Shown here: piece after piece, positions 3,021-32,184 of the stretch | Numbering within the stretch: position 1 is the stretch's first letter | How the letters are laid out: each line of letters opens with the position of its first letter | Source: a virus | IMG/VR virus record: IMGVR_UViG_3300025120_000284 | Location: 1 to 32,184 of that record | Direction: 5' to 3' (one strand) | Length of the DNA stretch: 32,184 nt | Position numbers and translations under genes: made by a program | The notes under the pieces: model-generated | Databases searched by the model: none | What the model saw: the letters and a program-made list of their open reading frames with translations, nothing else | Told to the model about the DNA's origin: nothing

Positions 3021-3124
3021 CTCAACCAAAAAAAACCGACGATCGGGAAAACAAACAAAACGATCGCCAATTATTGAAATGTAAAATTACGTTTGTTTTT
3101 CCATTATGTTTTCGCAATAAAAGT

Positions 3125-21236: not shown

Positions 21237-24200
21237 TTAAAATGTTATTCTTGATTCAATATTTTTGACATTACGTTGTGAATTTGTTACGTCCGCTTCA
21301 ACTAACAACACTTGTTGATTCGACATTGCTTCGGTTAATGCTTCGAAAATATCGTTGTCACCCGTTAATGTGTCCGTTTGGAAAACCATTCCCCCGTCCG
21401 CAAATTTACGTCCGCCACCCGCAACATTCATTTTTGACAATATAGGTTTAAACATTGCCGTTGATCTTTTATTGATCACCGCTTCGCCACCTTCTAATTC
21501 CGCAACACGTCCGCCAACACTAAATTTTTCACCACCTTGTGCGTGTGATCGTCCGTGAACCATTCCGCCCATTTTGAAAAATGAATCGTCCATAACACCC
21601 CCCAATTCCGCCGTTGGCGGTGCTTGTGCTTTTATTGTTGCTAATTGAAACGCCGTTGTTGCAACAACACCCGCGATCATAACACCTTTTATGATTGCGT
21701 CCGCAATAACATTATTCGTTGCCGAACCCGCTAAAATTCCCATCACCGCTTGTGCGCCACTTATAATTGCTTGGGCGGTTTGTAATTTTTTGTCTTTTTC
21801 GAATTGCTCAATTTTCAACGCCAACATTTTGTCGTCGTGTTTTGTCTCTATTTGTTCGATTGCCGTCGCTTGTTCTTCGGCACTCATTGACGCGAATTCT
21901 TCGGTTTCTTTGTATGCTTCAATTTCTTTTGATTTTTCCGCTTCAATGACACCCAATCGTGTGTTTAATTGTTCTTGTTGTAATTGATTGAATGACGCCA
22001 TAACGTCCGTGACTTGTGATAATGTCATATCAATTGCACCGATCAATTCTTCACCCGTGAAAATTCCGCCTTCTTCGTTCGTCCCAAAAATTGCACCTTT
22101 TAAGAATCCGCCCGACGCGCCTTCACTTTTTAATGCAACTTCAAATTCTCCGATTTGTGCTTTTAATCGTTTGATGTCTGCAATTTGTTGATCGGTTGAA
22201 ATTCCCGACGCTTCCGCCGTTTTCAATGCCAAATCCAATTCCGCTTTTGCAACTTTTAACGCCAATGAAATTCGTTCTTTTGCAACGTCCGCACCCGCGT
22301 CTTGCAAATCTTGTAAAATCTTTAATTGTTCTTTGTCCGCGTCGATCACCTTTTGTCCCGCGTCGCGCAATTCCAATAATTTATTTGTTTGCGTTTCTAA
22401 ATCATTGTTTATGATTTTGTTTTGTTTTTCGATTTCGTCGTCAACAACTTTCAAATCCTTTTTTGCTTTTAATACGTCGTTTGTTGCCTTTGTTACTTTG
22501 ATCGCGGTTTGCGTTTCAATTTCTGCAACACGTGTTGCGCGATCTTCGACACTCATTTTTTGCGCTTCTTCGGAATTTATAAACGCCGTTTTTGCTTGTT
22601 CACCAATAACAATTTGTTTTGTTAATTCTTCTTCATATCCTTTGACTTCGTCTTTTAACAATTGATATGCGGTTTTTAAATTTCCCGTCGCAAATGAATG
22701 TGTGTTTGTGGTTTGACTTAATCCCGCCAAAACTGAATTTTGATCCGCATAAACTTTTTTAATTTGTTTGTTTATGTTTTCCAATTTTGTTGATGATACC
22801 AATAAACGTGTGTTGAATATATCCGCATTGCTTTGTGCTTCGTTTTTATCATTTATTATATTAATGACGGCTTCTTCTGAATTTTGAATTGACAAATTGG
22901 ATTGTTCCGTTGCCGTTGCGTTTTCTTCAACTGCGGTTGCTTCTTCTTCTAATGCTTGGACAATTAACGCGGTGTTTGCACTAATATTATTTCCACGCGT
23001 GTTGACGTTTTGCGCTTGTTCGAAATAAAAATCCGTCATTTTTTCGTTTTCCGTTTTTGTTGCGTTTGTTCGTTCTTCGCTATCCGCGATAAAATCCGCC
23101 GTTGATCTTGCGCCAACTTTTTGTCGTTCTTCGTCCAACTTTAATATGTCATTGTTTATTTTTAACAATGTTTCATTTGGTGCGATTGCTTCTTCTTTTG
23201 CTTTTGCCAATTCTTTTTCCGCAATGACTTGTTCTTTTATTAATTCCGTGATTGATTCTTCGGACGCTTGTAAAACGATTTTTCTTTTGATTGCGTCAAC
23301 CGCATTTTTATAACTCGATTCCAATTGTGCAACAATTGTTTTTTCGTCTTGTAAATTTGAAATGTTTGTTCCCGCTAATTTGTTAAATTCGTTTAATGCT
23401 TTTTCACGTTCTTTTAAATCTAAATTTGCGTTTTTGATTTGTCCCGATAATGCTTTTAATCGTGCGATTTCGTCCGCTTGTTGTTTGCCGTTCTTTTTTC
23501 TTATGTCCGACAATTTAGATTCCAACCCAATTGTTTTTTTGGTTTCAACGTTTGATTCCTTTTGAATTTTCGCGCCGTCTTCCGTTTCATCGTTCCACGA
23601 CATTAAAATTGCAATTCCCGTTGCTAATGCGCCAACCAACAATCCAATTGGATTTGCTTTCATTGCAAAATTCCACGCCACTTGTAATGCCCTTGCACCC
23701 TTAACAATTAAATTCCACGCCTTTGTGACAAATCCCGATTTTAATATTGACGCGGTGAATCCTTGTTGTGCAATTGTTGACGCGATAACAACCGCCGTAT
23801 ATGCACCAACACCAATTGCAATTGCTTTGAAATTTTCAATTAATGTTCGCAATGCGTTAAACAATAAAGAAATCCCGTCAACGATTAATTCAATTGCGGG
23901 TGCTAATGCTTCGAACAATTCAATCACAAATCCGTTTGCACTTGACGACGCTTCGTCCAATGATCCTTTCAATGAATCACGCATAACGTCCGCAAATTCT
24001 TTTGCCGTTCCCGCCGAATTTTCTAATGAATCCGTTAAAACTGAAACTTGTTTTGCGCCACTTGCTAACGTTGCGAATGCCGTAACCGAACGTTTGTCCG
24101 TTAAACCTAACATTTCTTCGACGTTCGCGCCACTTTCGAACAAATCATTCAATGCGGGTAACAATGTATCAATTGACGTAACCGATCCCCCAAACGCTTG

Positions 24201-25253
24201 TGATAATGCCGAATTCGAATCCGCTAATTTTAAAAATATTGATCTTAACGATGTTCCCGCCGTTGACGCTTCCAATCCCGAATTTGCTAACTCACCCAAC
24301 AACGCGGTTGTTCCTTCTAAACTAAAACCCAATTGTGACGCAATCGCACCAACTTTTGGAAATGCAACATTAAATTTTTGTAAATCCAACGCCGTTGAAC
24401 TAAACGCCGACGCCAAAACGTCCGTCACCCTTGTTGCTTCGGACGCTTCTAATTTATAAGAATTTAAAACAACACCGACAATTTCCCCCGTTTCCGCAAT
24501 ATCGTTTCCAAATGCAAATGCCAAATCCAATGTCGCACCCGTCATTGCTTCAATTTCGGTTGGATCAAAACCCAACTTTGCCAATTCCTTTTGTAATCCC
24601 GCAACCTCACCCGCCGTGAACGCGGTTGTTGCGCCCAATTCTTTTGCGCTATTCGACAATAATTCTAATTCTTCGGCGGTTGCGCCACTAATAACACCAA
24701 CTTGTTTCATTTGAAATTCAAAATCGACAAACGTTCCCAACACACGTTGAAATGTTTTGAATGCTATAATCGCACCACCAACCGCCGTTGCAACACTTGT
24801 GATCGCTTGTTTATAATTTCCGACGTTCCTTTGGTTTCGTCCCATTTGCGCGTCCATCGCTTTTAACGATGTGGTGTTGACTTTTATTTTTGCACTTAAT
24901 TTTTCGAATTCCGCTTTGTTTTTACCTAACGGATCGGACAATTTCCGTAATTGTGCGGACAACTTCGCGTTTTGTGCGGTTAATGAATTATAAGATTTAT
25001 CGGTTGCGTTTACGGCTTTTGCGTTTTTTATTAATTCGGTTTTGCCTTTGTTCAATTCACCGCGTAATCCTTTTAATTTTGTTTCCGCCGTTACAACACG
25101 GGCGTTGTATTCTTTTAATGTTTCACCCGTTCGTTGCCCTTCACTTTTAAATTGCTTTAATTCTGCGGACGTGTTATCGATCGCGTTTTTTAATTGCGCC
25201 ATTTTATCCGTCCCCGTGACTTGAATGTCTAATATTGTGCTAATCGTTGTCAT
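21237..25253 (-). CDS. Tape measure protein
   Basis: The protein that sets tail length and is ejected with the DNA. The 1338 residues start with a coiled coil (1-150, DKMAQLKNAIDNTSAELKQF), then the conserved TP901-type core at about 170-440 (FVDFEFQMKQVGVISGATAE, ELGATTAFTAGEVAGLQKEL), a hydrophobic membrane-active stretch at about 465-570 (AIAIGVGAYTAVVIASTIAQ), long coiled coils (590-1150) and a glycine-rich end (GGMVHGRSHAQGGEKFSVGG). At roughly 0.15 nm per residue this implies a tail near 200 nm. It is the last large tail gene here and starts 2 nt after the preceding tail gene. Confidence 0.96.
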   Translation of the reverse strand: MTTISTILDIQVTGTDKMAQLKNAIDNTSAELKQFKSEGQRTGETLKEYNARVVTAETKLKGLRGELNKGKTELIKNAKAVNATDKSYNSLTAQNAKLSAQLRKLSDPLGKNKAEFEKLSAKIKVNTTSLKAMDAQMGRNQRNVGNYKQAITSVATAVGGAIIAFKTFQRVLGTFVDFEFQMKQVGVISGATAEELELLSNSAKELGATTAFTAGEVAGLQKELAKLGFDPTEIEAMTGATLDLAFAFGNDIAETGEIVGVVLNSYKLEASEATRVTDVLASAFSSTALDLQKFNVAFPKVGAIASQLGFSLEGTTALLGELANSGLEASTAGTSLRSIFLKLADSNSALSQAFGGSVTSIDTLLPALNDLFESGANVEEMLGLTDKRSVTAFATLASGAKQVSVLTDSLENSAGTAKEFADVMRDSLKGSLDEASSSANGFVIELFEALAPAIELIVDGISLLFNALRTLIENFKAIAIGVGAYTAVVIASTIAQQGFTASILKSGFVTKAWNLIVKGARALQVAWNFAMKANPIGLLVGALATGIAILMSWNDETEDGAKIQKESNVETKKTIGLESKLSDIRKKNGKQQADEIARLKALSGQIKNANLDLKEREKALNEFNKLAGTNISNLQDEKTIVAQLESSYKNAVDAIKRKIVLQASEESITELIKEQVIAEKELAKAKEEAIAPNETLLKINNDILKLDEERQKVGARSTADFIADSEERTNATKTENEKMTDFYFEQAQNVNTRGNNISANTALIVQALEEEATAVEENATATEQSNLSIQNSEEAVINIINDKNEAQSNADIFNTRLLVSSTKLENINKQIKKVYADQNSVLAGLSQTTNTHSFATGNLKTAYQLLKDEVKGYEEELTKQIVIGEQAKTAFINSEEAQKMSVEDRATRVAEIETQTAIKVTKATNDVLKAKKDLKVVDDEIEKQNKIINNDLETQTNKLLELRDAGQKVIDADKEQLKILQDLQDAGADVAKERISLALKVAKAELDLALKTAEASGISTDQQIADIKRLKAQIGEFEVALKSEGASGGFLKGAIFGTNEEGGIFTGEELIGAIDMTLSQVTDVMASFNQLQQEQLNTRLGVIEAEKSKEIEAYKETEEFASMSAEEQATAIEQIETKHDDKMLALKIEQFEKDKKLQTAQAIISGAQAVMGILAGSATNNVIADAIIKGVMIAGVVATTAFQLATIKAQAPPTAELGGVMDDSFFKMGGMVHGRSHAQGGEKFSVGGRVAELEGGEAVINKRSTAMFKPILSKMNVAGGGRKFADGGMVFQTDTLTGDNDIFEALTEAMSNQQVLLVEADVTNSQRNVKNIESRITF

Positions 25254-25255
25254 AT

Positions 25256-28200
25256 TTAAAATGTTGTTTGTTGATCAAATATTACTAATCGTGTATAATG
25301 TTTTTTTTGTGTTCGGTTGTTTATCACTTCAATTTTTGAAACAACAATGTTATAATTTCCGCCCGTTCCACTTCTTGCCGTTGCAATCACATTTGAATTT
25401 GCGTTTGGTTGAAAAACAAATTCGGCGGTTTGTGGTGATCCCGTCAATGTTGTTCGTGTTTGTCCAACTTTTAATCCGCCCGTGTCGCTTGTGTTGTCTT
25501 GCCAACGCCAAACCGAACCCGCCGTTCCATTAAATGAAACTTTCAATGTGTATTCGTCGCCGACAATATATTCAATCGATTGAACAAAATATGAAAACGC
25601 ACCATTTGTGGGAACATTTATTGTTGCGGTGTTGTTTGCAATTGTGAAATTTGTTCCCCCCCAATTTGAATTGTTTTCAAAATTTCCATTTTTAACACGA
25701 TCGCCCAATGCAAAAGGAACACCAATTGGAACGCCCGTCATAACTTCTTTGAATTCACCCGTTGTTGCGTCTTCATAATAAACATTTCCCCCGCCACCTT
25801 CTTTGATCATTCCCGTTGTGTCAACGGCAAATGCGGTTGAATTGTTTTGTGTTATTGCAAACGGCAAATTCGAATTTACGTTGTTACCTTCACCCAAAAT
25901 AATTTGATTACTTTTTGTGTTTTTAATATTATTTCCAATTGAAATTGAACCAACATTGATGTTGTTGTTTTTTCCAATATTTGACGAATTTAAAAATCCG
26001 TTTGAAATTAATTTTCCGCCGTCGTCAAAATAATTGTTGTCAATAAATTTATTCACTTTGTTTGGCAACGAATCCGATTGGACGCCGACGTTAAGTAATG
26101 GAATTTTTGTTGGACTATACACACCCAAATTTCCCGACGTGATTAATTCGTTGTTCGGAACTTTTGTGATTCCGTGATTAACCAATTCCGCCACGTGATC
26201 CGTCCATTGGTGCGTGTTGTTATGTCCCCAACCTTGATTGATATATGGAAATTTAATTTTACTCGGACGAACATTGTTAAATTCGTATAATTCAACTTGT
26301 GTCAATTTATTTTGTCCCGCTTGAAAATCCGTGATTTTGTTTAATATCCAATATGTGTCCGATTGTTTCCCTTGTATATGAATTAATTTTTTGAAATCTA
26401 ATTCCGAAATGTCTTTTGCGGTTAATTTGAACAACGCTTTTTTAATTATTGGACGTTCGATCAATGACAAAATATTGTTTTCCCAAAACATTTCATATAA
26501 TCCCGACGTCACGTCATATGGCGGTGCGGTTGAAACCGCGTTGATTTCTGAATTTTCAAAATATAATGACGGCGCGTCATAATCAACACCATTGATTGTC
26601 AATGTCCCACCCAACGAACCGACTTGATCCGAATAAACACCCGCGAATGGATATTCGGTTTCGTTTGTATATGGTGACGAATTGTTGTCGTAACCCCAAC
26701 GCCAAACATTTGAATTTGTGATTCCGTCTTCTTGGTTTAATGGTTGCAATCCATACCAACACAAAATTCGTGGCGAATATTCATTGTTTTTTTCGGGCAA
26801 ATCCGCGTTTGTTGTCGCACCCCAAATTGCGGAATAATCCGAATGAATCACGGGAACGAACGGAACTTTATATGTTCCATTATTATTTGAAATCGTTTTG
26901 TCGTAAAACATATATGTTGGCGAATAAAATTCCGATCCAATCTTTTGTTCTTCATTAATATACAATTCACCCAAATTCAATGTCTCCGATCCCAATTCAC
27001 ATTTTTGCCCTTTCCTTCGGTTTCGTTCTTCAACAAATCCGTCCGTTCCGTCATTTTCATATGTGAAACACAAATTCCGTTTTAATGCGTCGTATAAATA
27101 TTCGTTCTTTTGATCCGTTGATTCGTCTAATTTGTCCGTCCATTCAATCGCGTTTGAAATTGGATTGAAAAACATATCGCGCGGTTCAACTTTTATTGTC
27201 TTTGCGATTTCGTCCGATTCCCACATTAAATTGAACAATCCCGTTAAACCATTGATCCAACTTAATTGTGTAATGTCACACGGCAAAATTTGCGCCAACG
27301 AAATGTCCCCGCCGTCAATTAATGATGACGTCAAATTTCCTTTGAAATATTGTCGATTACACTTATATTTCATTTGTGTTAATCCAACAACTTTTTCATA
27401 TCCAAAAAATGTTGCGTCCGCATATTCCCATTTTTCACATTGAACTTCACCATATGCAAACACTTTGTCGTTGGCGTGTAAAATATCTAATTGAACACCA
27501 ACAAATCCTAATGTCGATTTTAAATTTGTGTTTCCCAATGGGTATGAATCACAATAATATGCGGGTGCGCTTGGATTGTTTGGATTATATTTTCGATCAC
27601 TTTGTGAAGAAACAACGTGATATTTTCCCGTTGAATGTTTGTAATGAATTAAATAAACATTGAAAACATATGTCATTCCTTTTTTATATGTTTCAAATGT
27701 TCCGTCGGGATCTTGTCCGCCCGAAATACAATCCGCCGTCGTCCCACCTTCGCCCGTTCCTTGTGTGTAAAGTGATTGCACACCACCACCCGCGTTCGTT
27801 GGTAAATCAAAAGGTGACACGGGATCGTTCAATTCATATGCGTTGTTCATTTCCAATTCCATTGATCCGTTGAATTCGTATGTCCCCAAAAAATTTGTTT
27901 GGAATGTTGATGTGTCTAATTGAATGGATTGTGTCGAATTCCCTTGTGTAATATCACAAGAAACACAACTCCAATCCATACCAACAATTTGATTTCCGCC
28001 ACCACACGGATTCGGACGATTCCACGCCAAACGTCCAAACGATGAATTCCCTTCACCATAACACCCCCAATACCAACCCGCCAACGTTGGCAATGCAACC
28101 GATGACGCGCCCATAAAATTATACGGACTTAACACGTCAAAATTTGGTGTCAATTGTTGTGTTGTGATCAAACCTTGTGGATCACACGTCGGACAAACTA

Positions 28201-29104
28201 ATGTTAAATTTGTCATTTGCCCGTGCCAATTATTCCCAACAACCGCACCGCAATTGTTTGACGATGTCGGATCATTATAATTCAACGGCGTTTTCCAATC
28301 CGTTGGTGTTCCGTTTTGATATTCGAACGAATAATCTGAAATTAATGTGTCGGGATTAACGAAATCTTCTTTTGGCAAAAAAGACACCAAACGTTTGAAC
28401 CATTCCGTTTCAAAAAATACGGAATCCAACGTGTAACCTTGTTGTGCAAAAATGCACTTTATCATATTATAAAAATAAAATGCGGGTGTCATATCCGACG
28501 GACTAACAAACGCCGTTCCGCCGTCCGTATAATTCCATTTTCCCGTGTTTACTAATGGATAAACAATGTGCGTTTGAACACCACTTATTGTTTCCCCCGC
28601 TTGTCCAAATTTCCACGTGTTTTCAATTGCTTGACGTCCGAACGTTGCCGTTGCGGGTGCGTTTGGAAAAAAGTTTCCCGCCGTAAAATCTATGTCACAC
28701 AAATTCAATGACGATAACGCGTTCACCCATTTAAAATTTTCACCATAAACATTGCATTCATACGATTTCGGGTGTCCTTTATATGTTGTTCCTTTGACTT
28801 GGAATTTACCTTGCAAAACAATTAATCCGTCAATAAAAATTTGGGCGTCATAATCTTCGATATATTGGAACGAATCATAAAGTGAATCCGAAAACAACAT
28901 TTGCAAAATTGTATTATTGTTTTTTGTTGCGGGAATCGAAAATGTTTTTGAAAATGAACCTTTTGATGACGACGGATCTTGGACGTCCTTAATTGAATAA
29001 GTTAACGCCAACGGAAAATCCGTTATTTTTGTAATATCCAAATCGTAAATGTCACGATTGGATTTTTTAATTATAAATTGAATGTTTGGTGTGTATTGCG
29101 CCAT
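25256..29104 (-). CDS. Large tail tip/adsorption protein with C-terminal carbohydrate-binding-like domain
   Basis: A 1282-residue virion protein. The N-terminal 200 residues (IIKKSNRDIYDLDITKITDF, ... SSKGSFSKTFSIPATKNN) match a type common in Bacteroidota phages near the tape measure, probably a distal tail/baseplate hub. The centre is beta-rich with W, N and G. Residues from about 1010 form a repetitive stalk (SNIGKNNNINVGSISIGNNI). The last 125 residues (VKNGNFENNSNW ... SKIEVINNR) look like a jelly-roll carbohydrate-binding module of the CBM4_9 type, as in receptor-binding tips. Sits directly before the tape measure. Receptor binding is inferred. Confidence 0.88.
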   Translation of the reverse strand: MAQYTPNIQFIIKKSNRDIYDLDITKITDFPLALTYSIKDVQDPSSSKGSFSKTFSIPATKNNNTILQMLFSDSLYDSFQYIEDYDAQIFIDGLIVLQGKFQVKGTTYKGHPKSYECNVYGENFKWVNALSSLNLCDIDFTAGNFFPNAPATATFGRQAIENTWKFGQAGETISGVQTHIVYPLVNTGKWNYTDGGTAFVSPSDMTPAFYFYNMIKCIFAQQGYTLDSVFFETEWFKRLVSFLPKEDFVNPDTLISDYSFEYQNGTPTDWKTPLNYNDPTSSNNCGAVVGNNWHGQMTNLTLVCPTCDPQGLITTQQLTPNFDVLSPYNFMGASSVALPTLAGWYWGCYGEGNSSFGRLAWNRPNPCGGGNQIVGMDWSCVSCDITQGNSTQSIQLDTSTFQTNFLGTYEFNGSMELEMNNAYELNDPVSPFDLPTNAGGGVQSLYTQGTGEGGTTADCISGGQDPDGTFETYKKGMTYVFNVYLIHYKHSTGKYHVVSSQSDRKYNPNNPSAPAYYCDSYPLGNTNLKSTLGFVGVQLDILHANDKVFAYGEVQCEKWEYADATFFGYEKVVGLTQMKYKCNRQYFKGNLTSSLIDGGDISLAQILPCDITQLSWINGLTGLFNLMWESDEIAKTIKVEPRDMFFNPISNAIEWTDKLDESTDQKNEYLYDALKRNLCFTYENDGTDGFVEERNRRKGQKCELGSETLNLGELYINEEQKIGSEFYSPTYMFYDKTISNNNGTYKVPFVPVIHSDYSAIWGATTNADLPEKNNEYSPRILCWYGLQPLNQEDGITNSNVWRWGYDNNSSPYTNETEYPFAGVYSDQVGSLGGTLTINGVDYDAPSLYFENSEINAVSTAPPYDVTSGLYEMFWENNILSLIERPIIKKALFKLTAKDISELDFKKLIHIQGKQSDTYWILNKITDFQAGQNKLTQVELYEFNNVRPSKIKFPYINQGWGHNNTHQWTDHVAELVNHGITKVPNNELITSGNLGVYSPTKIPLLNVGVQSDSLPNKVNKFIDNNYFDDGGKLISNGFLNSSNIGKNNNINVGSISIGNNIKNTKSNQIILGEGNNVNSNLPFAITQNNSTAFAVDTTGMIKEGGGGNVYYEDATTGEFKEVMTGVPIGVPFALGDRVKNGNFENNSNWGGTNFTIANNTATINVPTNGAFSYFVQSIEYIVGDEYTLKVSFNGTAGSVWRWQDNTSDTGGLKVGQTRTTLTGSPQTAEFVFQPNANSNVIATARSGTGGNYNIVVSKIEVINNRTQKKHYTRLVIFDQQTTF

Positions 29105-29116
29105 TTCTTTTTTGTT

Positions 29117-30517
29117 TTAATAACGTGGTTGTCTTTGGTTTACCGCCCTTGTAAATTTGAATTTCAATTGTGTTAAATTATCCGTCGTTTCGTCAAACAC
29201 GGCGGTTGCGGGTGTTATAACAATTGGAACAAAATAATATGGTTGTTCGCGGTTTGAATTTGCAACTTCATTGTTTGAAACTTGCAAAAATCCATCGTTC
29301 GGAACTCTTAAATAAACTTGTGTTGACGAAAACATTTCCGAAAAATGCTTTGCATATTCGGGTTTCATAAATTGTGTGCTAACTGAATATTCGGTGATTG
29401 ATTCATTCGCCCAATTTGAATTTCCAAACGCCATCGGTGTTTTCCAATTTTCGTAACCTAATGTTTGTTCAAAATTTTGAAATTTGTTTTTTGTTCCTTC
29501 TTTATATTTTCCCGTTGACGAAACCATATCATAACCGCCCATTGAATTTTTGAAACAAAATCTTAAATATCCTTTGTTTTTTAAACAACCGCGATCAACA
29601 TTAAAAACATATTCCGTCGCCGTAAATGTAGAAATCCCACCACCCGCGTTGATTAAATAATCAACCACATAAGAAACGACGTTTGCAAAATTTCCACCTT
29701 CCGTTCCCACATTTGCGGTGAATCCATTAACAATGTCACGGAATCCAACACACGTTGTGGACACGTTTTTTTCACTTGATGTTGTTGTGATTGCGTGTGT
29801 TCCCAATACTACGCCTTCGCCGTTGGGTTTTCCATATGTTCGAATTCTTATTTCCCCCGCGCCTTGTTGATTGCCGTAAAACATTAACATATATTGTTCT
29901 TCTTCGTGAATGTTGACAAAACTTTGATATGCGCCCGAATTATATTGAATCGGATAATTTGTGAACCATCTTTTGCGCGTAACGTCGGATTCATATTTGA
30001 ATTGAAAAAAATTGAATATTGATCCGCCCGAACCATTCGATCGAACACGTTGTGTCAACCATCGACGATCGGGGACGCCTTCGTGAACATAAAAAATACT
30101 TGACGAAACTTCGGTTGGATCTAAAACAATTAAACCCGTTGTTGCGTCTAAATATTCACGTTGAAATTTTACAACAACTTTAAATGACGCGACGTCTTGC
30201 CAAACTTTGTATAAATTCGGCGCACCACTATTGTTTCCCAATTGTTGATTGTTCGGCATATCAAACAACGTGTATTTTGTCAAATTGTTGAATACTTCGG
30301 ACGCGTCAAATTGATAAGTATAATTTATATTCGGGACATTTGCCAACCTAAATTTTCCGCCCAATGACGTTTCAACACCCGTGTTTTGATCTATTTTGTA
30401 ACAACGCGCAACAATGTTTGTTGTGTCCGCCGTGTTTTCAAATACTTGAAAAAGTAACGGAACTAATGTTGACGTCAAATAATTTGTTAATGGTTTACGT
30501 TGTATAATTATTGCCAT
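29117..30517 (-). CDS. Tail structural protein
   Basis: A 466-residue beta-rich virion protein from the start MAIIIQRKPLTNYLTSTLVP at 30517, which lies 1 nt after the preceding gene's stop; an in-frame ATG at 30559 would overlap that gene by 41 nt. Composition (many N, T, G, aromatic residues; few cysteines) and position between a small tail gene and the large adsorption protein suggest a tail tip, collar or minor tail component. No diagnostic motif was found; a tail tube protein is possible. Confidence 0.83.
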   Translation of the reverse strand: MAIIIQRKPLTNYLTSTLVPLLFQVFENTADTTNIVARCYKIDQNTGVETSLGGKFRLANVPNINYTYQFDASEVFNNLTKYTLFDMPNNQQLGNNSGAPNLYKVWQDVASFKVVVKFQREYLDATTGLIVLDPTEVSSSIFYVHEGVPDRRWLTQRVRSNGSGGSIFNFFQFKYESDVTRKRWFTNYPIQYNSGAYQSFVNIHEEEQYMLMFYGNQQGAGEIRIRTYGKPNGEGVVLGTHAITTTSSEKNVSTTCVGFRDIVNGFTANVGTEGGNFANVVSYVVDYLINAGGGISTFTATEYVFNVDRGCLKNKGYLRFCFKNSMGGYDMVSSTGKYKEGTKNKFQNFEQTLGYENWKTPMAFGNSNWANESITEYSVSTQFMKPEYAKHFSEMFSSTQVYLRVPNDGFLQVSNNEVANSNREQPYYFVPIVITPATAVFDETTDNLTQLKFKFTRAVNQRQPRY

Positions 30518-30518
30518 A

Positions 30519-31049
30519 TTAAATAATAATTTGAATGTTTGGTTGGAATGTGTCACCAATTATTTTGACAACTTCCGATTGATAAATTTGTGTTATTTTT
30601 TCCAATTCTTTGTTGATCTTTGGTTGTGATTTTCTAACGAATCCCAATTTTTGTTTGTCCATTGGATTTCCCAAACCAAAACCACCACGTGACGTTGCCG
30701 TTTGTTTTGTTGCTATTGCGAACGCCATTCCACGAATCACGTCGTTGTCACTTGAAATCCCTTTGTCTTGAATCCATTTCATTAATCCCGCTATGTATTC
30801 GGAATTTTCCGCACCCGTTCGTGTTCGTGCGTCATACGGAATATTGTTTGCGTTCACTCCATATTCAACAACACGCCAATAATCCAATCCCATTATTTGC
30901 ATATTAAAACCGAATTCACCTTGTGGGATAATTTGATGTGACAACGAATTTGTCAACGCGCCCGACGCGTTACGTTTCAACGCCAATAATTCCAAACCTA
31001 AAATGATTTGTATTTGTGTTGCAATGTTGTTGATCGGTTGTAAATTCAT
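30519..31049 (-). CDS. Tail completion/HK97 gp10-like candidate
   Basis: A 176-residue protein with a helical N-terminus (ATQIQIILGLELLALKRNAS), a central 'YWRVVEYGVNAN' segment (about 57-68) and 'WIQDKGISSDNDVIRGMAFA' (about 92-111), features shared with head-tail joining proteins of the HK97 gp10 type. It lies between the tail-completion-like gene 31053-31532 (gap 3 nt) and the tail protein (gap 1 nt). The family link is tentative. Confidence 0.75.
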   Translation of the reverse strand: MNLQPINNIATQIQIILGLELLALKRNASGALTNSLSHQIIPQGEFGFNMQIMGLDYWRVVEYGVNANNIPYDARTRTGAENSEYIAGLMKWIQDKGISSDNDVIRGMAFAIATKQTATSRGGFGLGNPMDKQKLGFVRKSQPKINKELEKITQIYQSEVVKIIGDTFQPNIQIII

Positions 31050-31052
31050 TTT

Positions 31053-31532
31053 TTATAAATTATTAAAATTGCAATATCTGAAAAAATCAAAACCCATTGT
31101 GACTTTTATTCCCAACAAACGATCGTTGGTTGATTCTTTTAATCTAACAATTTGAATCGGTGTTGTCATAACAAAATCAATTCCTTGCGACGTAAAATGT
31201 CCCCACCACGATTGCAACCAAAACAAACATTGATTTTCCATTGTGTCCCATAATTCCAAAATCTTTGTGTCGTCCGTCACATTATATGTTGACGGGAGAT
31301 TGTTGTAAATCGTAAATGTCCAATTTGATTTCATATCAACAACGTTTGAATTGTAATTTGTCGCGGACAATGTCATTGTTGGCGGGTTCATAATCATTAA
31401 CGGGAATTGTTTGTTGTGTATGTTGTCAACTTCCGATGGATAACCAAAATAAAATTGTCCCCCCGTTGTTGTCAAATTCCAATATGATTTCATTTGATCA
31501 ACAATTAAATTTGAATTTGTTATTGCACTCAT
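31053..31532 (-). CDS. Tail terminator/virion protein candidate
   Basis: A 159-residue protein from the start MSAITNSNLIVDQMKSYWNL at 31532, 4 nt after the stop of the frameshift extension; a longer in-frame start at 31658 would lie inside that gene. It is rich in aromatic residues and Asn, alpha/beta, with FYFGYPSEVDNIHNKQFPLM near 27-46 and TKILELWDTMENQCLFWLQS near 97-116. The layout resembles small tail-completion proteins; not proven. Confidence 0.78.
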   Translation of the reverse strand: MSAITNSNLIVDQMKSYWNLTTTGGQFYFGYPSEVDNIHNKQFPLMIMNPPTMTLSATNYNSNVVDMKSNWTFTIYNNLPSTYNVTDDTKILELWDTMENQCLFWLQSWWGHFTSQGIDFVMTTPIQIVRLKESTNDRLLGIKVTMGFDFFRYCNFNNL

Positions 31533-31536
31533 TTTT

Positions 31537-31881
31537 TTATCTTTTATTATTTCGTTTTGCGTTTGCCTTTTGTCTTGATTCCGCGTCAACCGATTTGCGA
31601 ACTTCGGATTCATATTCATTGTGTGCGGACTTCCACGACAAATAAGTGAACACGACAAATAAATTTTCCGCCCTTACTGAATCAATCGCGTTGTTTGGGT
31701 GCTTTGTAAACAACCCCGTGTTTGCAACGTCATACAATGTGTTTAACCAACCATATGGTTTCATAATTTCCCAATTTTTTGTTGCGTGTCGGTTTTCGTT
31801 TCTGATTCCGCTTTTAAATACGTTCGGGAATTTTTCTTGTAAATGTTTGTTTGTTTCGTCAAAAAAAAAACGAAATTCCAA
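31537..31881 (-). CDS. Tail chaperone -1 frameshift extension (GT-like C-terminal part)
   Basis: Open in the -1 frame relative to the 235-residue chaperone and overlapping its end. The bounds run from the first ATG (31881), but the likely product is a fusion made by slipping at T10 (31870-31861): the zero frame reads GTT TTT TTT TTG, containing T-TTT-TTT. A -1 slip yields 202 residues of the chaperone plus 108 residues ending at 31537, 310 in total. The extension (ETNKHLQEKFPNVFKSGIRN, then WEIMKPYGWLNTLYDVANTG) is mostly helical with a basic tail. Position ahead of tail genes fits lambda G/GT. If the run is really 11 T, it is one ordinary gene. Confidence 0.75.
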   Translation of the reverse strand: MEFRFFFDETNKHLQEKFPNVFKSGIRNENRHATKNWEIMKPYGWLNTLYDVANTGLFTKHPNNAIDSVRAENLFVVFTYLSWKSAHNEYESEVRKSVDAESRQKANAKRNNKR

Positions 31882-32184
31882 ACAACGTCCATTGTCAAAC
31901 CTTTGAACAACTTTGATTTTTTCAAAACCTTTTGTTCGTTATAAACTTCGCCAACTTCACGACAAAGAATCGCCATTTGTTCCGCGATCACTCCAAATTT
32001 TCCCGCCTTGTTTTTTTCGGTTAACATATCCAATTGCGCCGTTTCTATAAAATCACCGAACGTTGATTCCGTCATTTTAGATTTTGGAAAAAAATATTCT
32101 TTGTTTTTGTATTTGAAACTTTTTTGTTCACCATCGATTTTTTCATTGTCCGTGATATTTGAATTTAAAAAATTCGTCATTGTC
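31761..32184 (-). CDS. Tail assembly chaperone, C-terminal part (gene crosses contig junction)
   Basis: The 3' part of the 235-residue gene whose start is at 442 in this window. The first in-frame ATG visible here (32180) is internal, at M88 of the joined protein, and not the true start. The part contains KYKNKEYFFPKSKMTESTFG and ends KTDTQQKIGKL. The zero-frame stop at 31761 lies 100 nt past the T10 slip site (31861-31870), so the last 33 residues are replaced when the ribosome or polymerase slips. Tail chaperones of this type coat the tape measure during tail assembly; function here is inferred from the frameshift and the neighbourhood. Confidence 0.8.
   Translation of the reverse strand, partial: TMTNFLNSNITDNEKIDGEQKSFKYKNKEYFFPKSKMTESTFGDFIETAQLDMLTEKNKAGKFGVIAEQMAILCREVGEVYNEQKVLKKSKLFKGLTMDVVWNFVFFLTKQTNIYKKNSRTYLKAESETKTDTQQKIGKL
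31861..31871 (-). promoter_or_regulatory. Candidate -1 slippery site, G-T10
   Basis: On the minus strand ten T follow a G; zero-frame codons GTT TTT TTT TTG include the heptamer T-TTT-TTT. Slipping back by one joins the chaperone to the open frame ending at 31537. Both ribosomal slipping and RNA polymerase slipping are possible on ten T. Confidence 0.7.
32027..32184. repeat. Terminal direct repeat, right copy (contig overlap)
   Basis: Second copy of positions 1-158, offset 32,026. The single difference (G at 32058, A at 32) is a synonymous Phe codon change (TTC versus TTT) in the tail chaperone gene, pointing to population variation or a read error. Confidence 0.93.

Follow-up and report, generated by a model that had tools for sequence, protein, structure and literature searches.

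Textbooks present frameshifting in tail chaperone genes as a classic example of recoding by the ribosome, and the phage DNA studied here raises the question of whether a uniform run of ten T, at which two overlapping frames meet, joins them into one longer product, and whether the ribosome or RNA polymerase does the slipping. The sequence, referred to below as the window, is a single IMG/VR virus record (IMGVR_UViG_3300025120_000284) analyzed over its full length of 32,184 nucleotides. The two frames very probably encode the short and the long form of a tail-building helper, that is, a tail chaperone of the G/GT type. We moderately favor a reading in which this pair, located after the terminase block, would yield its fusion mainly by transcriptional slippage, with one U inserted.

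If transcription determines the ratio of the two forms, an equivalent protein arrangement would have been attained at another step of gene expression, a situation already described for dnaX of E. coli and Thermus. The analysis also identified a hidden family of fusion genes, the members of which are split by annotation into two hypothetical proteins, even in the cultured phages P12024S and P12024L, and the T-run pair is a directly testable system.

Two frames joined across the contig ends

The window begins and ends with 158 bases (1–158 and 32027–32184) that are identical except for a single A/G mismatch at position 32; this terminal repeat reflects either a circular or permuted genome or an assembly overlap with a variant. 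When the ends are joined, a frame of 235 codons appears on the minus strand, running from an ATG at 442 to position 1 and then from 32026 to 31761. In window coordinates, the 5' part of this G-like zero-frame gene occupies 1–442 and the 3' part 31761–32184, with the final 158 bases repeating 1–158. The coding strand carries T10 at 31870–31861, read in the zero frame as GTT TTT TTT TTG (31871–31860). Slipping at T10 into the −1 open frame (31537–31881, minus strand) gives a 310-residue fusion that ends at 31537, of which the part after the slip is a T-like domain of about 107 residues plus the stop, and a +1 shift leads to an immediate stop. These recomputed products agree with the preliminary description, in which a 235-residue gene and a second frame were said to overlap at ten T and to form a 310-residue fusion by a −1 slip, hidden by the contig break.

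Two independent contigs from different metagenomes, L002 (IMG/VR 3300001460_003183, 99.8% identical) and L003 (IMG/VR 3300027996_000885, 95.7%), run uninterrupted across the join and retain T10. The junction is therefore neither an artefact of the contig ends nor a miscounted run, and, together with the −1 junction in 145 relatives described below, these contigs rule out both an assembly artefact and a single plain gene with 11 T. Apart from T10, no coding-strand run of at least eight T lies within any gene of the window: three further such runs, at 3028, 16830, and 19591, fall between genes or, at best, within a questionable 5' extension.

Gene order

All genes considered here are on the minus strand. 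The terminase small subunit (2177–2578; phrog_4044, 6e-10) and large subunit (TerL; 904–2211; phrog_2, 4e-35) are followed by p139 (435–854), which gene-order comparison places between TerL and the G-like gene. Downstream of the fusion, the same comparison gives p160 (31053–31532), kept next to the fusion and occupying what is probably the tail-terminator position, and then p176 (30519–31049), p480 (29117–30559), and p1282 (25256–29104), followed by the tape measure protein (21237–25253; PF10145 PhageMin_Tail, 1.9e-33). Near relatives keep the order TerL, p139, G/GT-like gene, p160, p176, p480, p1282, tape measure, and the core of p139, G/GT-like gene, and p160 is kept even beside a terminase of another type. 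Thus, the fusion lies ahead of the tape measure gene in the same block and is separated from it by four genes (p160, p176, p480, and p1282), as initially noted. Even where the terminases differ greatly, p139 itself keeps its place separating TerL from the fusion gene. Flavobacterium phage 11b and Cellulophaga phi10:1 carry the named terminases closest to the window TerL (47–48%), from which Bacteroidota are the likely hosts.

Conservation of the junction

Relatives were gathered through TerL, most at more than 50% identity, and second-domain profiles, scanned twice, enlarged the set to 146 distinct run contexts. In the 19 TerL-found relatives with both parts of the fusion present, these overlap by one base where they meet; in L022–L025 the alignment begins one residue later, yet the junction reads identically to those of the others. 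A run of nine to 11 T is present at the junction in all 146 contexts (T9 in 121, T10 in 23, and T11 in 2; none shorter than nine), and the second frame is in the −1 register in every distinct relative for which both frames could be read (145/145), a relation that excludes chance. The run is thus kept in relatives, and the −1 direction, likened at the outset to that of lambda G/GT, holds throughout. The second domain is conserved as a protein, with the pattern GWLN...Y..A..G.F. The phages bearing the T-run junction form a group, largely marine, that is related to Flavobacterium phages; a search for prophages in bacterial genomes with the second-frame profile found none.

In the clade of the window, the zero-frame site is always xxT TTT TTT TTG. 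Across a tree of 143 sequences, the amino acid of the codon preceding TTT TTT TTG changed at least 15 times, and zero changes occurred in the third bases of that codon, of both Phe codons, and of TTG; third bases a few codons upstream of the site changed 8–30 times. A point against the polymerase reading is that coding needs in the two frames, for Leu in one and for Phe in the other, already fix part of the flanking T.

Three diverged clades, including that of the cultured Nonlabens phage P12024S, also combine T9 with a −1 second frame. L026–L029 have GTT TTT TTT TAC or TAT at the equivalent place, and in profile comparisons their first domain matches both the family of the window (E 1.4e-9) and the P12024S gene after TerL (phrog_32199, 4.6e-6), which itself has CTT TTT TTT TAT and a −1 second frame. 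L124, L215, and L216 have AAT TTT TTT TTG and are tied to the family through their layout and a match of the second domain. In each diverged clade the run comprises nine or more T, set between codons that differ from clade to clade. P12024S and P12024L (P12024S genes 38 and 39; phrog_32199 and phrog_38404) resemble the window's family in their T9/−1 junction, which lies in the gene directly after TerL, and differ from it in having shorter domains. In P12024S (L114, 23136–23830), the fusion gene with its T9 slip site is annotated as two hypothetical proteins.

Two distant Bacteroidota phages encode both domains in one frame: L127 (2461–3228), with T8 and a +1 frame that stops right after the run, and Elizabethkingia phage TCUEAP1 (L217, 2092–2634), with no run. 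These single genes suggest that the fused form is functional. Flavobacterium phage 6H (L115, 10352–10927) has a matching G-like fold and, instead of T9, just six T and then a C where the run would be expected; its frames are not joined by one simple shift, possibly through a sequence error or another arrangement.

Slippage by polymerase or by ribosome

Under the favored mechanism, the G-like protein of 235 residues would be translated from faithful U10 transcripts. Less often, RNA polymerase would slip back in the run and add one U, giving U11 in a minority of transcripts (loss of two U would have an equivalent effect), and ordinary translation of these transcripts would produce the 310-residue GT-like fusion. 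Its GT-like second domain would recruit tail tube subunits, and the first domain would bind the tape measure protein.

Slipping of the ribosome to −1 requires only seven U (U UUU UUU or U UUU UUG). Hence, a floor of nine T points to polymerase stuttering rather than to ribosome slipping alone. In many bacterial genomes, it is from nine bases on that selection against polymerase slippage shows up (PMC1088944), and slippage at runs of about nine bases has been observed experimentally (PMC5009743, PMC6260861). At A/T runs, single-base insertions predominate (PMC5574713) and the E. coli polymerase favors poly(T) (PMC6260861), both of which fit the constant −1.

Transcriptional slippage as a standing mechanism implies not only that an A/T homopolymer of about nine or more is kept at the junction, as observed, but also that long runs are avoided in other genes whatever the phase. 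Relative to synonymous recoding, the 471 other ORFs examined in these phages (676 kb) contained three runs of at least nine A against about 28 expected, and ten runs of at least eight T against about 33 expected; A7 occurred at the expected frequency. The depletion of long runs is present in every codon phase and so fits polymerase (or replication) slippage, not a ribosomal heptamer; replication slippage could be an alternative cause.

The main competing explanation, possible yet less probable, is that the ribosome is programmed to shift by −1 at U UUU UUU or U UUU UUG and so makes the G/GT pair in the lambda manner, with U at the slip site. The direction matches lambda, both heptamers of the X XXY YYZ type are in frame within the run in all relatives of the window's clade and are good slippery sites, and the fixed third base of the preceding codon would be the X of such a heptamer. 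The constant −1 fits the ribosome too, and slippage by the polymerase alone might have allowed some +1. Nevertheless, the run is never shorter than nine T though seven would do, and L026–L029 and P12024S keep the length of nine T even though TA interrupts their second heptamer. In other genes, A7 and T7 in the slippery phase show no special depletion, and no conserved RNA structure was found upstream or downstream of the site (mean z of about −0.35 to 0).

The search for stimulators found, in one T9 subclade only, that GGGAG-like sequence with its GAG codon and a TTC codon are kept upstream of the run; these synonymous choices could be a ribosomal stimulator. In this clade (e.g., L062, 5985–6004), GAG is used 111 times versus 5 for GAA, and the upstream Phe codon is TTC 132 times versus 7 for TTT, despite TTT being the common Phe codon. 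The sequences just before the run have GGGAGTTC in common, perhaps with a Shine-Dalgarno-like or hybrid effect.

Both mechanisms fit the junction, as the preliminary description recognized in rating them equally likely. The floor of nine T and the depletion of long runs shift that balance toward the polymerase, and, as judged from the DNA sequence, a polymerase-made fusion is moderately probable.

Among experimentally demonstrated cases, mxiE of Shigella flexneri comes closest: one U inserted at T9 joins two overlapping frames into a longer product (PMC1088944, PMC6260861). The product of mxiE is an unrelated protein, a bacterial transcription activator, and the polymerase step that was shown for mxiE is proposed for the window. 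A published tail chaperone fused by transcriptional slippage was not found in a literature search that was thin on subscription papers and did not extend to bioRxiv preprints.

Probable role of the pair in tail assembly

The assignment as tail chaperones follows from architecture and gene position. As in lambda gpG/gpGT (PMC5009743), a −1 shift late in the first frame would yield, beside a short product, a clearly longer one that gains a second domain, the pair is placed in the block before the tape measure gene, and the shift site and junction are conserved in relatives (145/145 at −1 on T9–T11). The window differs from lambda in its pure run of T9–T11 in place of a mixed heptamer (G-GGA-AAG), and in its gene order: lambda has tube, G, GT, and tape measure, whereas the pair of the window follows the terminase and p139, outside the interval between tail tube and tape measure genes, with four genes before the latter. 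The window pair also lacks detectable sequence homology to named chaperones.

Searches of Pfam, PHROGs, and NCBIfam with either frame of the window yielded no chaperone match above chance. In Foldseek, the fold predicted for the G-like protein (pLDDT 76) has many matches among unnamed phage proteins and only one, a weak one, named as a tail assembly chaperone (E 1.3), and it has no match in the PDB; there was thus no sequence match, and no fold match beyond that weak one, to a named tail chaperone. Fold matches of the T-like model were not used as evidence, given its low confidence (pLDDT 64). The chaperone identity put forward at the outset is therefore upheld by architecture and position and left without support by the profiles.

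These profile results, together with the location after the terminase and four genes ahead of the tape measure, would also suit a programmed fusion of another function, e.g., a head-tail joining factor, which would compete with the proposed function and not with the slip. We consider this unlikely: a short and long pair with a frameshifted C-terminal domain, in a block that ends with the tape measure gene, is the hallmark of tail chaperones, and no other such pair was noticed in the block.

Start codons of the second frame

The second frame could alternatively be a separate gene with its own start, at TTG 31881 or further in, coupled to the first. TTG at 31881 is its only possible start near the junction, 21 nt before it, a TTG or GTG is found at this distance in the window's clade, and the annotation of P12024S shows two genes. 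However, this TTG is forced by a conserved Trp codon (within Val/Phe-Trp codons). Start codons were counted from the upstream stop of the second frame to 15 codons past the junction: 125 of the 145 relatives have no ATG, and 24 have no ATG, GTG, or TTG at all, so that in these 24 the second frame cannot be an ordinary separate gene. L022–L025 likewise have no start codon near the junction. A separate gene would, moreover, have no need to keep the T run. For want of starts, this explanation is very improbable and was rejected; no separate second gene, which the preliminary description had named as contrary evidence, was seen in the clade of the window.

Chaperone pairs at A runs in other flavobacterial phages

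Overlapping frames joined at a long homopolymer (A8–A10) before the tape measure gene also occur in Flavobacterium phage 11b (A9, −1) and in the Cellulophaga phages phi10:1 (A8, +1), phi17:1 (A10, −1), and phi18:2 and phi12:1 (A9, +1). Unlike the window, these pairs use an A run, belong to another protein family, follow the tube gene in the standard order, and in some cases shift by +1. Comparison by hhalign detected no homology of the window family to the phage 11b-type chaperone (probability <1%), so that the comparison is one of analogy.

Overall, we lean slightly toward the view that, in this group of phages with probable Bacteroidota hosts, polymerase stuttering at T9–T11 controls the proportion of the two chaperones, with a chaperone family that is unnamed in the libraries, and that related flavobacterial phages use A8–A10 likewise, some of them in the opposite direction.

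Among the Cellulophaga phages, phi18:2 and phi12:1 (L212 and L213, 884–892) are near-identical to phi17:1 (L211, 883–892), and a difference of one A moves the second frame from −1 in the latter to +1 in the former. Sequencing errors may affect these run lengths; if the lengths are right, only two-way slippage serves both. The second frame of phage 11b matches proteins named as tail chaperones in Lactobacillus and Enterococcus phages.
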